Source: a virus. From it: a stretch of DNA of 64,000 nucleotides. The notes under the pieces were generated by a model. The model saw only the letters and a list, made by a program, of their open reading frames with translations. It was not told the DNA's origin and did no database searches. The position numbers and the translations under genes are program-made. The DNA lies in IMG/VR virus record IMGVR_UViG_3300023174_005338, positions 1 through 64,000 of that record. One strand, 5' to 3'. Position 1 is the first letter of the stretch, and each line of letters begins with the position of its first letter. This document shows positions 5,830 through 22,787 of this stretch, piece by piece.

Positions 5830-6878
5830 CCTTGCCCATAGCCGTGGTCGAACGATGGCCCATGGAAGAATACAAGGTGCTGTACCCAGATCAGTGCATT
5901 GCGCTCAAGCACAGCGTGGCAGACACCTTGAAATTATACAATGAACTCCAACTGTTGCGACAGTTATTCCGGTTCGAAGATGACAAAGAGAGCAAACGTC
6001 TAGATAAAAATCTTGAACTGCTGATCAGAGAAAAAGAAGAACGGTATTTTAGACTGACCAAGTTTAGTGACTATCCAGCCATGACCATGGCTGCTTTCCC
6101 ACAAAGCAGTTTCATGACCAGTCACGATTATAAACGTGCCAAAGATGCAATCACAGATCCGATCTTGGTGCGTGGTATCAGCGCAGGCGCATACATCAAA
6201 CATGCTGAACAAAATGGCCGCGATTACTACTTTATGGAAACTGGTTATTTAGGTAACTATCGCAGCGAAAACAACAGAACTGGTAGAAAAATATATCACA
6301 GGATTGAAAAAAATGCCATGCAACAGCGTAGGTTTTTGGATGTGCCCGATGATCGGTGGCAAGCACTCTGCAGATACAATCCCGCACTGAGCTATCAAGG
6401 CTGGCGCAAAGATCCTGGATCAAAAATCCTGTTGATCATGAGCACAGAAAAACCTTTTCAGTTCTATGGTGCAGATAGAGACACTTGGATCAAAAACACC
6501 ATTGATACTATAAAACAACACACAGATCGACCCATAGTAATCAAGGACAAGCCCGGACGTGCTGAAAGAAACACCACAGACAACATATATGATATTCTGG
6601 AACAAGACATATGGGCCGTGGTCACTTACAACAGCATAGCAGCCGTAGAAGCCGTGCAGGTTGGTATTCCCAGCTTCAGTCTGGCTCCCACTGCAGCCAG
6701 TCTTGTCACCACCGACGATCTCAGTCTTATTGCTTGCCCGCCTCGAACCGATGAACAGGTGATCTACAAATGGTTGTGCAGTTTGGCCTATGGTCAATTC
6801 AGCATAGACGAAATCATAACCGGCCAAGCCTGGAATCTGGTACAAGAAAATGAGCACCGAACGACCTTTGATTATTAA
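5826..6878 (+). CDS. Capsule-type glycosyltransferase-like protein, paralogue 1
   Basis: 350 residues. The C-terminal half carries a GT-B-like signature found in capsular polysaccharide transferases: R-P-I-V-I-K-D-K-P-G near 240, then Y-N-S-I-A-A-V-E-A-V-Q-V-G-I-P-S-F near 275. The proteins at 6850 and 9285 share the same pattern (R-P-I followed by an N-S and G-x-P block), so the three are paralogues. The acceptor is unknown. Start chosen at the ATGA overlap (5826) rather than at the in-frame ATG 48 nt upstream. Confidence 0.65.
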   Translation: MTLPIAVVERWPMEEYKVLYPDQCIALKHSVADTLKLYNELQLLRQLFRFEDDKESKRLDKNLELLIREKEERYFRLTKFSDYPAMTMAAFPQSSFMTSHDYKRAKDAITDPILVRGISAGAYIKHAEQNGRDYYFMETGYLGNYRSENNRTGRKIYHRIEKNAMQQRRFLDVPDDRWQALCRYNPALSYQGWRKDPGSKILLIMSTEKPFQFYGADRDTWIKNTIDTIKQHTDRPIVIKDKPGRAERNTTDNIYDILEQDIWAVVTYNSIAAVEAVQVGIPSFSLAPTAASLVTTDDLSLIACPPRTDEQVIYKWLCSLAYGQFSIDEIITGQAWNLVQENEHRTTFDY

Positions 6879-15714: not shown

Positions 15715-16799
15715 TTAAGATTAATGCAACCCCAGACACATACGTTGCCAATTATATAATTTCACATCAACAATTACGAGACAATATACGACTTTATGAA
15801 ACTGGTGAAAATATTATCGATTTGCAGATTGGGCCCGGAGATATAGATTTTCATGATTCTGTTACTGGTGGTCCTCAGAACGATCTGTTACACCAGTGTG
15901 ATCAAGATATTGTTGCAGTATGGATTGAGGGTTTGCATTCGATCCTCGACGATATATCTATTTTTCCAAAAAATAAAAAATATATTTTTTTCTGCCCCTA
16001 TAGTTGGGATTGTGCCCTGTATCAGTTTCCATTCGAATATACAGTTGTAGAATGTAATTTTCACTGCTGGGATCGATTATTTTCGTATTTTAACCTTTAT
16101 AATTTCAATTTTTTTACTCCATTGCAGTATGAATTTGAGTCACCAAAACCCTATAAATTTTATGCACCTATAGGGGCGCGCCGTCCTGTAAGAAACATAT
16201 TTGTACAACATCTACTAGATAATATTGAGTTTGATGATTTTGTGCTTTCTTATCAAGGGCATAACCTAGGAAAAACTGATTATTATCGATTGGCAGTCGA
16301 AGACAGCAAAACCAACGGTCATTATGATTGTTTGAGCCCGTTTGCTGATTACGAAAAATACTATGTTGGGCTGGCCGAGCTGGTTCCAATAAAGACCATG
16401 AGTCAGGCTCGATTAACTTTGGTAGTAGAAACACAAATAAATTATTTAGGTAGTTTTTTTTACACTGAAAAAACAATGAAATGTATAGTGACCGGAACAC
16501 CTTTTGTGTGTTATGCAAACCAATATCATTTAAAAAATCTCAGAGAAAAAGTAGGGTTCCAAACCTATTCTTCACTGTGGGATGAATCATATGACAATAT
16601 CCAAGACCCCTACGAAAGATCTGTAGCCATAGTAAAGCTATTAAATCAACTACAAAATTTTGATTGGGAATCAGCCCGGCCGGAACTGTTGCGCATAGCT
16701 CAACATAACATGTACAATATATTTCAATTCCGAAACAAAGAACGGTCAATATTCATACAAAATTCAAACAATTTAAAAAAGTTTTTAGGTCGTGAGTGA
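15711..16799 (+). CDS. AT-rich glycosyltransferase-like protein, paralogue of the 61405-62694 product
   Basis: 362 residues. The C-terminal half carries T-E-K-T-M-K-C-I-V-T-G-T-P-F near 250, then a V-G-F-Q-T-Y block and W-D-E-S-Y-D-N-I-x-D-P-Y-x-R near 290. The minus-strand gene at 61405 has the same blocks. The T-E-K and P-F pattern recalls fucosyltransferase/exostosin-like GT-B enzymes. Codon use is strongly A/T-biased compared with the neighbours, suggesting separate acquisition. Coupled to both neighbours by overlaps. Confidence 0.62.
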   Translation: MIKINATPDTYVANYIISHQQLRDNIRLYETGENIIDLQIGPGDIDFHDSVTGGPQNDLLHQCDQDIVAVWIEGLHSILDDISIFPKNKKYIFFCPYSWDCALYQFPFEYTVVECNFHCWDRLFSYFNLYNFNFFTPLQYEFESPKPYKFYAPIGARRPVRNIFVQHLLDNIEFDDFVLSYQGHNLGKTDYYRLAVEDSKTNGHYDCLSPFADYEKYYVGLAELVPIKTMSQARLTLVVETQINYLGSFFYTEKTMKCIVTGTPFVCYANQYHLKNLREKVGFQTYSSLWDESYDNIQDPYERSVAIVKLLNQLQNFDWESARPELLRIAQHNMYNIFQFRNKERSIFIQNSNNLKKFLGRE

Positions 16800-17475
16800 T
16801 TCCAAATATATCTGCCAGTATTGCAAGAAAGACTTTATCAAGGAGTCCAGTCTTGCGGTGCATTCATGCGAACCGCGTCGTCGTCGCATGGAAAAAGACG
16901 AAGCAGGTGTACGTTTAGGATTCCACGCATACCTAAGGTTTTATGAATTGACACAAGGTTCGGCAAAGTTAAAAACATTTGAAGACTTTGCCGATAGTCC
17001 GTACTACAAGGCCTTTGTAAAGTTTGGTAGGTACTGTGTGGACATCCGGGCTATAAATCCAGCACGGTTTGTTGAGTGGGTGTTGAAACAAAACAAGAAG
17101 ATTGATCACTGGGCCAAAGACACAGTGTATACAGAATATCTCATTGACTATCTGCGTGTGGAAAATGTCAACGATGCTCTGGCTCGGGCCATGGAGTTTG
17201 GCATAGACTGGTCAGAACAAAGTCAGCACCCAGCCGAAGATTGTCTGCGCTATGGCAACACCAATGCCATGGTCTATGCTGTAACTGCTGGCCGTGTCAG
17301 TCCTTGGATAGTGTATAACTGTGAATCAGGTCAGAAGTTTTTGAGTGAACTTGATGCTACACAAGTAGCCATGGTGTGGCCCTACATTGATAGTGAAGTG
17401 TGGATGAAAAAATTCTCAGACTATGTGGCTGATCAGGAATACGTCAAAGAGATGCTACAGAAAGCAGGTTGGTAA
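16792..17475 (+). CDS. Zinc-finger conserved T4-like phage protein
   Basis: 227 residues from a GTG start that overlaps the previous gene by 8 nt. The N-terminus is a zinc-finger motif, C-Q-Y-C-x12-H-x-C (residues 8-26). A helical domain with F-V-K-F-G-R-Y-C and a conserved W-V-L-K-Q-N-K-K follows. Similar proteins are conserved in T4-like cyanophages, function unknown. It may bind DNA or the adjacent DnaE-like protein, to which it is coupled by a 1-nt TAATG overlap. Confidence 0.78.
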   Translation: MSDSKYICQYCKKDFIKESSLAVHSCEPRRRRMEKDEAGVRLGFHAYLRFYELTQGSAKLKTFEDFADSPYYKAFVKFGRYCVDIRAINPARFVEWVLKQNKKIDHWAKDTVYTEYLIDYLRVENVNDALARAMEFGIDWSEQSQHPAEDCLRYGNTNAMVYAVTAGRVSPWIVYNCESGQKFLSELDATQVAMVWPYIDSEVWMKKFSDYVADQEYVKEMLQKAGW

Positions 17476-18053
17476 TGAGCGCAGACATTGATATTGACCT
17501 AGCCCATAGAGAACAATTATTAAAATTGATCCAAGCAACGCCAGCACGACAACTGTATCAAGGACAAGTGCGTAGACACAACAGCGGAGTATATCCAACT
17601 GACATGCCGTATGATCCTGTCAATGCCTGCGCGGCCATTGACTATGAAACCGCTGAACAGTTGGGATACTTCAAGATAGATCTACTCAACATGACAGTGT
17701 ATCAACTGATACAGGATCAAGCACATTATGATCGCATGCTGGTTGCTGATCCGCCATGGTCCAAATTGTGGACCGACAGTGAATGGGCCCAGCAACTAGT
17801 GCATGTGGGAAACTATACAGAATTGTTGAAAACCATGCGTCCTGACAGCATACCCAGGATGGCAGCATTTATCAGTATTATTCGTCCAGGCAAAACACAC
17901 TTGCAAAACCAACCCTGGGACCGGGTTTTTGCTTCAGTATGGGATGGCGACGACAGCCGCGGTTTTGTGTTCAAACAAAGCCATGCTGTCAGTTACGCAG
18001 CCTTGGTGGCCCTGCACATGAATCTACTCAACTCGTCGTACCAGAGTAATTGA
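17475..18053 (+). CDS. Miniature DnaE-like (family C polymerase) palm protein
   Basis: 192 residues. Four blocks line up in order with bacterial Pol III alpha. (1) D4-I-D6-I-D8 followed by R-E-Q-L-L matches the DFDVDF block with two catalytic Asp. (2) H-N-S-G-V then G-Y-F-K-I-D69-L-L-N matches HAGGV and VKFDFLG, the third catalytic Asp. (3) M-R-P-D-S-I then I-I-R-P-G-K (135-140) matches LQPDCF and LFRPGP. (4) K-Q-S-H-A-V-S-Y-A (167-175) matches NKSHSAAYA. The PHP, thumb and C-terminal domains and most of the fingers are absent. Polymerase activity is unproven; it could be a regulatory decoy or nucleotide binder. Confidence 0.75.
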   Translation: MSADIDIDLAHREQLLKLIQATPARQLYQGQVRRHNSGVYPTDMPYDPVNACAAIDYETAEQLGYFKIDLLNMTVYQLIQDQAHYDRMLVADPPWSKLWTDSEWAQQLVHVGNYTELLKTMRPDSIPRMAAFISIIRPGKTHLQNQPWDRVFASVWDGDDSRGFVFKQSHAVSYAALVALHMNLLNSSYQSN

Positions 18054-18401
18054 TTTTCTCTTGCTTTTTTTGCGGCTTATTTCGCTGAGACTGCATATGG
18101 GCCCGTGTAGTATTTCCAGATCCTTGTTGGTAAAGGTGCGCAGATAAGGACGAAAAATGTCCCACTCGCCTTTTAAGAATATGTTGATAGGCACAGTTCT
18201 GTTGCTTTCCCACCACCACACATTGGCCAGTTCAAGGAATCTGCGTTTGATTTCTATGTCTTGGATCGCTCCAAAATCATAGATCGTGGTTATGGCATCG
18301 TCTTGATTTTGAATGATACCCACATATTCCGTGGTAGCATACACACACAAGGTGATAAACGGATATTTCTCCGCTAGTTGGGCAAAAAAGTCTGTGCTCA
18401 T
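18024..18401 (-). CDS. Conserved small phage protein, convergent with the DnaE-like gene
   Basis: 125 residues on the minus strand, overlapping the 3' end of the DnaE-like gene by 30 nt. The sequence is compact, with W-W-W-E-S-N-R-x-V-P-I-N-I-F-L-K near 62 and a basic C-terminal tail (R-K-K-S-K-R-K). Similar proteins occur in T4-like phages, but no function is known to me. The basic end suggests nucleic-acid contact. Confidence 0.68.
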   Translation of the reverse strand: MSTDFFAQLAEKYPFITLCVYATTEYVGIIQNQDDAITTIYDFGAIQDIEIKRRFLELANVWWWESNRTVPINIFLKGEWDIFRPYLRTFTNKDLEILHGPICSLSEISRKKSKRKSITLVRRVE

Positions 18402-19655: not shown

Positions 19656-20660
19656 ATGATCGATGTGATTTCTTACTTGCCCGCACGACGCAAGCCCAGT
19701 GCTTCGGGTTGGATCAGTTTCAATGCACCCTGCTGTATACACAACAGTGAAAGTGCGGATCGTCGCAGTAGGGGTGGTATCAAAACTTCAGATGCAGGGT
19801 GGAGTTATCACTGTTTCAACTGTGGCTACACTGCTAGTTTTATCTTAGGTCGCAATCTCAGTTTCAAGGCACGCAAGCTGATGTCATGGTTGGGGGTACC
19901 AGCAGAAGAAATAGAACGCATCAACTTAGAAAGTCTACGCCATCGTAGCATGGAAGGTCTACTTTCTGATCGTCAAAGGTTGAGCAATACCTTGCAAGGC
20001 ATAGAGTTTGAAGAACGTGACCTGCCACCAGCTGCAGAACTGGTCACTACAAAACATAATCTGCACTGGAATTACTTGCGTGGCCGTGCCGTACCAGAAA
20101 GCTATCCTGTGATGACTGTGTTAGAAAATGACAGTGTGCATTGGACACGTCCACAGGTCATAGTGCCATTTACCTATGACGATCGCGTGGTAGGTTACAG
20201 TAGCCGCATGCTGGACAATCGTCAGCCTCGGTACATACATGACACACAGCCTGGCTATGTGTTTGGCACAGACTTACAAGGTGCTGACTGGCGTTATGCC
20301 ATAGTGGTTGAAGGTGTGTTTGATGCACTTGGCATTGGAGGCTTGGCTGTGTTGCATGCCGAGATCAATGACGCACAGGTCAGACTCATACGCAGTCTAG
20401 ATCGTGAAGTCATAGTGGTACCTGATCAAGACGCGGCAGGCATGAAGTTAGTAGACCGTGCAGTAGAACTAGGCTGGAGTGTAAGCATGCCTGCATGGCC
20501 CGCGGATGTCAAAGATGTCAATGATGCTGTGATTCGTTGGGGAAAGGTAGCAACTTTGATAACTATCATGCAGTCCAGAGAAACCAGTAAAATTAAAATA
20601 GAACTAAGGAAGAAAGCACTCTTAAAAAGACTTAAACAATCAAAGATTGTAACTTCTTAA
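19656..20660 (+). CDS. 61: gp61-like DNA primase
   Basis: 334 residues. The zinc-binding head has C26/C27/H29 and C53-F-N-C56. The TOPRIM catalytic core has the glutamate at E219 (V-V-E-G-V-F-D-A-L) and the Asp pair D258/D260 (V-P-D-Q-D-A-A-G). It makes RNA primers for the lagging strand together with the gp41-type helicase encoded just downstream. Its last 29 nt overlap the convergent homing-endonuclease gene, so the basic C-terminal tail may have been shaped by that insertion. Confidence 0.9.
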
Positions 20661-21261
20661 GTCTCCATGTTTCTTTTTGTTTTTCAATTTGTTCTGCTGA
20701 CCTTTTTCTTCCTTTCAAGGCCGCACTTACTTTAGCATTCCATTCTTTTGAGTGTTCAACTTTTTTAAGTGCCATTCGTCTTTTCTCTATGGTGTCTTTA
20801 GTTTGTTTTAGACCTGTGTGTGATATGCTATTCTTTTTCCTACGTTCTAAACTATGTTTTACCCCAGTGAGAGATTTCTGGATTTTTTCTTTTGTTTTTG
20901 TTGTTCTTGTTTTACCGCGGTTTGAATTGGCTCTTTTCAATTTGGTTTCTGCAGATTGAATAGCACCAATTGACCCTTCTCCGCCATCGGTACGGTTATG
21001 AAGAATTCCTGTATTGTTATTTTGCCTTCCATACCATCTTATTAATTTTCGTTCCAAAATAAATGCACCTATTTCAAGCAAGTCATGAGAAATAATTATA
21101 ATACGACCAGGCGGTGGAGTATGCACACCCTGATTGTTTTGTCTGTGCTGAATCCAAGCTCGTGGGCCAGAACCTTTACCTATATAATATGGTGTTCCAG
21201 AATTGCGTAGGTAGGCATACACATAAAAGCTATTGGGTGGAGATAATTTTGTAAATATCAT
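20632..21261 (-). CDS. Free-standing GIY-YIG homing endonuclease
   Basis: 209 residues. The nuclease head has V-Y-A-Y-L near residue 14 and P-Y-Y-I-G-K-G near 25, the GIY-YIG signature, with a catalytic-type Glu in the L-E-R-K-L-I region. Two or more NUMOD3-like DNA-binding repeats (G-x-K-H-S and [10 protein letters not shown]) follow in a Lys-rich tail. It is inserted in reverse between primase and helicase, like T4 seg genes. Start set at 21261 because AAAGGAG lies 8 nt upstream; an upstream in-frame ATG would place that site inside the coding sequence. Confidence 0.88.
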
Positions 21262-21322
21262 TGCTGGTGCTCCTTTCAAGCATTAGAGTAGTTGGACATT
21301 GGCGTGTCGCGAACTACACCTT

Positions 21323-21389: not shown

Positions 21390-22787
21390 ATGATTACAGA
21401 TTATAATTTGGCAGTGCAACGTCTCTTTTTAGAGATGATGATTTCTGACGCAGAATTGTTCGTCAGAGTTCAAAATATTTACAATCCCGAAAACTTTGAT
21501 CGCAGTCTGCGACCGGTTGCAGAATTTTTGAAACAACATTGTAATGAATATAAAACACTACCTACGCCAGAACAAATAAATGCCGCAACAGGAATCAAAC
21601 TTGAGCCAATACTTGATCTAAATGAAGGTCACTGTGATTGGGCGTTAAACACATTCGAAGGATTTACTCGACGTCAAGAACTAGAGCGGGCAATCTTGAA
21701 GTCAGCAGACCTGCTGGAAAAAGGTGAGTATGATCCTGTGGAGAAGTTGATCAAGGATGCGGTACAGATCAGCTTGACCAAGGACATGGGCACAGACTAC
21801 TGGTCTGATCCCAAAGCTCGTATCAACAAATACTTTAATAGCGGTGGACAAGTTTCAACAGGTTGGCCACAGATGGACAAGATCTTGTATGGTGGATTCA
21901 GCAGAGGCGAACTCAACATTTTTGCAGGTGGATCAGGTTCTGGTAAATCCTTGGTCATGATGAACATTGCTTTGAGCTGGTTGCAGGCTGGCTTGTCGGG
22001 GGTGTATATCAGTTTGGAACTCAGTGAAGAACTGTGTGCCCTGAGAACTGATGCCATGTTGGCCGGAATGAGCACCAAAGAAATACGCAAGGACATTGAT
22101 CAGACCGAGCTCAAGGTCAAACTTGTGAGCAAGAAAGCCGGACAATATCGTATCAAGGCCCTGCCGGCGCAAAGCAACATCAATGACATACGAAGCTACA
22201 TCAAAGAAGTACAAGTGCAAACAGGATTGAAAGTGGACTTTGTCATGTGTGATTACTTGGACTTGTTGATGCCTGTGAGCGCCAAGGTCAGTCCCAATGA
22301 TCTGTTTGTCAAAGACAAGTATGTTTCAGAAGAACTGCGTAACTTGGCCAAAGAGCTCAATGTGTTGTTTGTGACAGCCAGCCAGTTGAATAGATCGGCC
22401 GTGGAAGAAATTGAGTTCGACCACAGTCATATTTCGGGCGGTATCTCAAAGATCAACACAGCAGACAATGTGTTTGGCATCTTTACCAGCCGAGCCATGC
22501 GTGAACGTGGCAAGTATCAGATACAGTGTATGAAAAGTCGTAGTAGCACAGGTGTAGGACAAAAGATTGACTTGGACTACAACATTGAAACCATGCGTAT
22601 CACTGATCCAGGTGAAGAAGCAGGGCCAGTTAACTCTTTCAAGAAACCTGATATTTTAACCAGCATCAAAACACAAAGTCGTATGACCACACCTGCAGAA
22701 GAAGAAATTGTAGAATCTGGCAAAATAACCGCTGATGTTCAGAGCGCAAAACTAAAACAGTTGTTGGGAAAGATAAAGACCACATGA
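21390..22787 (+). CDS. 41: Replicative DNA helicase, DnaB/gp41-like
   Basis: 465 residues. The N-terminal helical domain (1-130) is joined to a RecA-like ATPase with Walker A G-G-S-G-S-G-K-S (180-187) and Walker B F-V-M-C-D-Y-L-D-L. H3-like T-A-S-Q-L-N-R-S and a C-terminal R-S-S-T-G-V-G region follow, as in DnaB-family hexameric helicases. It unwinds the fork and stimulates the primase. An A/K-rich tail could contact gp32 or gp61. It ends in an ATGA overlap with the oxygenase gene. Confidence 0.92.
   Translation: MITDYNLAVQRLFLEMMISDAELFVRVQNIYNPENFDRSLRPVAEFLKQHCNEYKTLPTPEQINAATGIKLEPILDLNEGHCDWALNTFEGFTRRQELERAILKSADLLEKGEYDPVEKLIKDAVQISLTKDMGTDYWSDPKARINKYFNSGGQVSTGWPQMDKILYGGFSRGELNIFAGGSGSGKSLVMMNIALSWLQAGLSGVYISLELSEELCALRTDAMLAGMSTKEIRKDIDQTELKVKLVSKKAGQYRIKALPAQSNINDIRSYIKEVQVQTGLKVDFVMCDYLDLLMPVSAKVSPNDLFVKDKYVSEELRNLAKELNVLFVTASQLNRSAVEEIEFDHSHISGGISKINTADNVFGIFTSRAMRERGKYQIQCMKSRSSTGVGQKIDLDYNIETMRITDPGEEAGPVNSFKKPDILTSIKTQSRMTTPAEEEIVESGKITADVQSAKLKQLLGKIKTT

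Follow-up and report, generated by a model that had tools for sequence, protein, structure and literature searches.

The C-terminal half of a split minimal family C DNA polymerase encoded by a jumbo phage

We analyzed a 64,000-base stretch of viral DNA (the window, bases 1-64000 of the 337,119-base IMG/VR record IMGVR_UViG_3300023174_005338, a jumbo-phage genome of ca. 337 kb) and focused on a gene at 17475-18053 on the plus strand. Its open reading frame starts with an ATG at 17475, which overlaps the TAA stop of the upstream gene, and ends with a TGA at 18051-18053. The 192-residue product lies where an earlier note made from the sequence alone had placed it; there, it was taken for a self-contained miniature of the DNA polymerase III alpha (Pol III alpha, DnaE) catalytic core. 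PHROG 11778, labeled 'DNA polymerase', matches the protein over its whole length (E=2e-49). Our analysis confirms that the protein is a real and conserved relative of the DnaE catalytic core. It represents the C-terminal half (C half) of a split minimal family C polymerase whose N-terminal half (N half) is encoded by a separate gene of the same genome.

Relatives of the C half are encoded in at least 594 IMG/VR stretches and 67 phage records, while the SCTP-2 protein, used as query against IMG/VR, returned no matches. Carriers among the named phages inspected were PA5oct, RaK2, Atu_ph07, Phosso, SCTP-2, XacN1 and Vibrio phage 2.275.O, with genomes of 287-490 kb. Conservation was assessed in an alignment of 29 non-redundant members with identities to the window protein down to 32%. 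Residues D4, D6, D8, H35, G38, P45, A60, G64, K67, D69, Y76, W95, A130, I136, R137, P138, K140, W156, F166, K167 and H170 were invariant in all 29. Comparison with close relatives gave Nei-Gojobori proportions of 0.09-0.17 for nonsynonymous (pN) and 0.69-0.94 for synonymous (pS) differences, and the gene is thus, as judged from sequence comparison, under strong purifying selection.

All four DnaE-like blocks quoted in the earlier note are present in the open reading frame. The D4-I-D6-I-D8 motif (17484-17498, plus strand, as for all motifs given here) comprises the first two catalytic aspartates, corresponding to E. coli D401 and D403, and the D405 position. H35-N-S-G38 (17577-17588) is equivalent to E. 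coli H511/G514 based on hhalign comparison with DnaE, and K67-I-D69 (17673-17681) contains the conserved lysine and the third catalytic aspartate (E. coli K553 and D555). Equivalents of the palm residues D401, D403 and D555 are therefore all found in the C half, and the claim that the three catalytic aspartates are kept (D4, D6 and D69) holds. R137-P-G-K140 (17883-17894) corresponds to the fingers RPG motif (E. coli R639-P640-G641), and F166-K-Q-S-H170-AVSYA (17970-17999) is an O-helix-like motif of the FxKSH type in which the invariant H170 is aligned to E. coli H760, for which a role as steric gate excluding ribonucleotides from Pol III alpha has been proposed (PMC8485763). This alignment favors deoxynucleoside triphosphates (dNTPs) as substrates. 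The D405 position is occupied by aspartate in all DnaE groups and by asparagine in PolC (PMC3919608). Since D8 falls on this position and is aspartate in 29/29 members, the motif assigns the C half to the DnaE type and not to PolC.

Kinship with DnaE was not established from Pfam, which by itself was uninformative for the C half (finger domain only, E=0.17). A single-sequence phmmer search against the PDB gave no matches, and a profile built from the C-half alignment matched Pol III alpha weakly (E 0.12). Direct hhalign comparison of this profile with one of seven full-length DnaE proteins yielded E=7.8e-8 at a probability of 94.5, pairing K67/D69 with E. coli K553/D555 and R137 with R639. An AlphaFold2 model of the C half (mean predicted local distance difference test (pLDDT) score 89.5, predicted template modeling (pTM) score 0.76) was used for structural searches. 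In Foldseek, Pol III alpha accounted for all of the top matches (lowest E 6.9e-4). With VIA-align, the model matched Taq residues 460-838 (Z 9.5, root mean square deviation 4.3, 189 residues), Geobacillus PolC (3f2b) residues 970-1296 (Z 9.4) and E. coli alpha residues 399-781 (Z 8.0), and it also mapped to residues 418-808 of the M. tuberculosis protein and 969-1301 of PolC. All structural matches above Z 4 were Pol III alpha or PolC chains (Z 6.1-9.5), the best unrelated row reaching Z 3.9. Residue 1 of the model aligns near residue 969 of E. faecium PolC, which, if ungapped, places D4 and D6 on D972 and D974, both of which are catalytic (PMC12592400). Descent from a family C core and the predicted Pol III-like palm, both anticipated in the earlier note, are thus borne out by profile and structure comparison, and a chance motif match is ruled out by the PHROG 11778 assignment, the relatives, the invariant residues and the structural and profile-profile matches.

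Compared with intact DnaE, large parts of the protein have been cut away. The interval between the D405 and H511 equivalents is 24-32 residues in the phage family and 95-116 in DnaE, indicating that the thumb is gone. Likewise, the interval from P640 to F756 has shrunk to 28-36 residues from 110-159, indicating loss of the index-finger segment (about E. coli 641-755, including E688 and R709, which are invariant in the DnaE set). The C half extends to the position matching E. coli 781 and no further; the helix-hairpin-helix (HhH)/clamp-binding, OB and tau-binding regions and all other C-terminal parts are absent. Further, the Gly-Ser (GRGS) motif of the palm is not in the C-half chain and was found in a separate protein.

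PF07733 matched two further loci of the phage genome, which was covered through individual stretches and profile searches. One of these loci, a longer DnaE, is described below. The other is the N-half gene at genome positions 117041-117598 (plus strand), ca. 99 kb from the C-half gene and likely encoding 170 residues (PHROG 11127, E=4e-40; PF07733 at positions 29-94, E=2.4e-6). The N half carries GVGRGSSVAS and ends in YNLDISEFLR, and the C half takes up at DIDID, precisely the point where intact DnaE reads on (PDIDIDF). Among N-half members, GxGRGSSxxS is invariant or nearly so. Profile-profile comparison aligned the N half to E. coli 298-394 (E=6.7e-9, probability 95.8), whereas the N- and C-half profiles gave no alignment to each other. 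A model of a 73%-identical family homologue (pLDDT 81.8, pTM 0.59) maps to E. coli alpha 271-393, M. tuberculosis 303-413 and PolC 816-964, with Z 10.8-8.7 for the best nine chains. Because the two models map in this way, the halves are adjacent, non-overlapping stretches of one domain with the break between E. coli 393 and 399, so that the Gly-Ser and Asp motifs of the Pol-beta-like palm lie on different chains. With the alignment of the N half confined to E. coli 271-393, neither chain has room for a PHP domain. Given the known chemistry of the fold, neither chain would have a complete active site. The protein is thus not the self-contained core of the earlier note: its descent from a DnaE core stands, but as a minimal nucleotidyl transferase by itself it is an unlikely enzyme because the GRGS palm half is encoded by a separate gene. 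In Vibrio phage 2.275.O the N-half coding sequence is annotated as 122 residues (5953-6318) with a late start, while the open frame according to the profile is 179 residues, and the deposited start may be wrong.

Co-occurrence was examined in 22 records comprising 15 IMG/VR contigs, six GenBank jumbo phages and one metagenome-assembled genome (MAG) that contains phage contigs. The N half was present in all 22, as was a family B polymerase, and the C half in 21, the sole record lacking it being a 235-kb contig. In a tblastn search, 58 of 60 listed GenBank records with the C half also listed the N half; the two exceptions were XacN1, where the N half was recovered by profile, and PP728206, a 109-kb record. 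In the genome analyzed here, the family B polymerase gene lies at 161994-164651 (plus strand; PF00136, E=4.9e-32; phrog_262, E=6e-195), in line with the coexistence of the two polymerase types that the earlier note had assumed. A PF00929 search of this genome for a proofreading DnaQ partner found nothing, which leaves the alpha-epsilon idea put forward for Atu_ph07 (PMC6102473) without support in this phage.

Based on these results, we propose that jumbo phages have a minimal nucleotidyl transferase of the DnaE type made of two subunits, the C-terminal one being the C half. The C half would supply the metal-binding residues D4, D6 and D69, the RPG motif and the O helix with the steric-gate residue H170, while the N half would supply the helical palm half with GVGRGSSVAS. 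Folding together along the broken chain (E. coli 393/399), the halves would form one complete palm, and the heterodimer would add deoxynucleotides to primer ends near a T4-type fork, as a gap-filling, primer-extension or repair enzyme working beside the family B replicase. With no thumb, index finger, PHP domain or clamp-binding parts, the enzyme would be expected to have low processivity and a remodeled nucleotide site. Catalysis by the pair is probable, and we consider assembly into one palm that adds deoxynucleotides with low processivity near such a fork to be fairly likely. Several points weigh against this proposal. No fusion of N and C halves was seen in the 22 records, in which open frames did not exceed 221 residues except for the MAG's own 1145-residue cellular DnaE. 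The N-half model is the less certain of the two and comes from a homologue. Since one phage group has both halves among its core genes, co-occurrence alone is no proof of partnership; a stronger argument is that the halves complement each other in covering one domain. Finally, without the index finger the dNTP site must be remodeled, and activity could be lost or changed.

In two alternative readings the pair is not a polymerase. The halves might assemble into a nucleotidyl transferase for untemplated terminal addition, capping or nucleotide-signal synthesis, templated synthesis having been lost together with thumb and index finger. The shrunken thumb and finger intervals would fit such an enzyme, and the palm triad plus GRGS would in principle suffice for a Pol-beta-type transferase. 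However, an enzyme not acting on dNTPs would not need the steric-gate histidine, the RPG motif and the O-helix motif, all of which are kept, and both genes reside in replication clusters, so that we regard this alternative as unlikely. Less probable still is a catalytically silent structural or regulatory replisome subunit that uses the old fold to hold the primer-template or clamp loader: such a role would be in keeping with the loss of most DNA-binding domains and the presence of a complete family B polymerase, but a scaffold would be expected to lose the catalytic aspartates and the NTP-binding GRGS motif, which are invariant down to 32% identity.

That the 192-residue protein works alone, as a minimal transferase or a decoy, appears very improbable. 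Its single chain is predicted to fold with confidence, yet it lacks the palm half that carries GRGS, which is conserved in a gene of its own, and the halves do not overlap in profile-profile comparison; a standalone transferase or decoy was dropped as the leading explanation once the N half had been found. Since conservation is highest at the active-site residues, the decoy suggested in the earlier note finds no support. Returning to the two-subunit transferase, a more far-reaching form is conceivable, though we hold it only tentatively: an active two-chain Pol-beta-fold enzyme of ca. 362 residues without thumb and index finger, with a remodeled nucleotide site and a distinct job at the fork such as primer extension or hand-off, gap filling or lesion bypass. 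If true, this would be the smallest family C enzyme known to us and would offer a pared-down model of the bacterial replicase core. An active pair would be a catalytic core about one third as long as E. coli alpha, showing which parts are needed for nucleotide addition, and would explain why this jumbo-phage group keeps a bacterial-type active site beside a T4-type polymerase.

A split minimal Pol III alpha of group 2.2 jumbo phages has been described by Iyer et al. (2021), who predicted a two-chain active enzyme and took it as a model of how ancestral Pol III may have looked (PMC7824862). The arrangement is therefore not unexplained. The window protein is a diverged member of this family, which corresponds to PHROG 11778 (C half) and PHROG 11127 (N half): the genome encodes an Asp-bearing C half (ca. 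190-215 residues in the family), a separate and distant GRGS gene and a family B polymerase, and the gene neighborhoods are the same as in Atu_ph07, RaK2, PA5oct and SCTP-2. It differs in coming from an uncultured phage and in the presence of a 557-residue PHP-less DnaE in the same genome. Among the open-licence papers searched, none with experiments on the split enzyme was found. Earlier annotations of a truncated Pol III alpha exist for Pectobacterium phage CBB (CBB_328, 172 residues; PMC5259590) and for Atu_ph07 gp316 (PMC6102473). Atu_ph07 gp316 is the N half, CBB_328 matches the N half by size, and the N-half match in CBB is annotated as DNA polymerase III alpha; the passages concerned name an alpha-like N half only and do not mention the C half.

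Relative to E. coli dnaE, the phage pair retains the equivalents of D401, D403, D405, D555 and K553, RPG 639-641 and the O helix with H760, together with GRGS in the partner chain. It differs in being split after ca. residue 393, in comprising about 362 residues in two chains compared with 1160, and in lacking the PHP, thumb, index finger, HhH/clamp-binding, OB and tau-binding regions. PolC, the Gram-positive family C enzyme, shares the fold of the C half (3f2b), but has asparagine at the D8 position, and the phage protein lacks both exonuclease and PHP domains. In cyanobacteria, DnaE is likewise encoded by two genes, with full-length halves being rejoined by a split intein. The phage halves, in contrast, end at the domain boundary without extra sequence. 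A split caused by an intein or homing insertion was rejected, as the ends are clean domain boundaries in all members seen and no intein-like tail is visible; split inteins are cited in PMC3919608.

A search of genome contigs with the C half gave 12 matches, all in MAGs of unrelated phyla. These MAGs are labeled as archaea, Elusimicrobia, Pelagibacter and others, and one 335-kb contig carries both halves. The matches are best read as binned phage DNA and likely represent jumbo-phage contigs misbinned as cellular, and a cellular origin or presence of the C half was rejected on this reading.

The C half is located in a primase/helicase cluster, while the N half lies next to genes for a GroES-like protein and a gp44-like clamp loader; in distant phages, too, both genes reside in replication clusters. 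Directly upstream of the C half lies a gene for a 227-residue protein (16792-17475, plus strand; PHROG 11058) with a weak C2H2-like zinc finger at its N terminus, the stop of which overlaps the C-half ATG. This protein was found in 10/10 jumbo-phage records tested, mostly directly upstream of the C half, and could be a third subunit or loader. A convergent gene for 125 residues (18024-18401, minus strand; PHROG 11637) overlaps the 3' end of the C-half gene. Convergent genes of ca. 120-145 residues also follow the C half in PA5oct, RaK2, Atu_ph07, Phosso, SCTP-2 and Vibrio phage 2.275.O, and XacN1 has a similar one, but one gene later. A gp61-type DNA primase (19656-20660, plus strand) and a gp41/DnaB-type replicative helicase (21390-22787, plus strand) were assigned by position, the former from annotated primases in PA5oct, RaK2 and Phosso and the latter from annotated helicases in these three phages and Vibrio phage 2.275.O. 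Between them, on the opposite strand to both, an open reading frame for a GIY-YIG-like endonuclease (20632-21279, minus strand) looks like a homing endonuclease insertion.

The third family C protein of this genome is the 557-residue PHP-less DnaE, encoded outside the window at genome positions 93749-95422 (minus strand; PF07733, E=1.5e-38). It comprises palm, thumb and fingers and carries the motifs WRRAFAKK, RGSAGSS and PDIDLDF. One close relative encodes a 94% identical protein within a syntenic block, and none turned up in the remaining jumbo-phage records tested; identities are 36% in the huge phage LR756508 and ca. 27% in Streptomyces phages. According to Iyer et al. (2021, PMC7824862), Pol III domains other than those of the split enzyme are absent from the phages that carry it, a statement from which this 557-residue DnaE departs.
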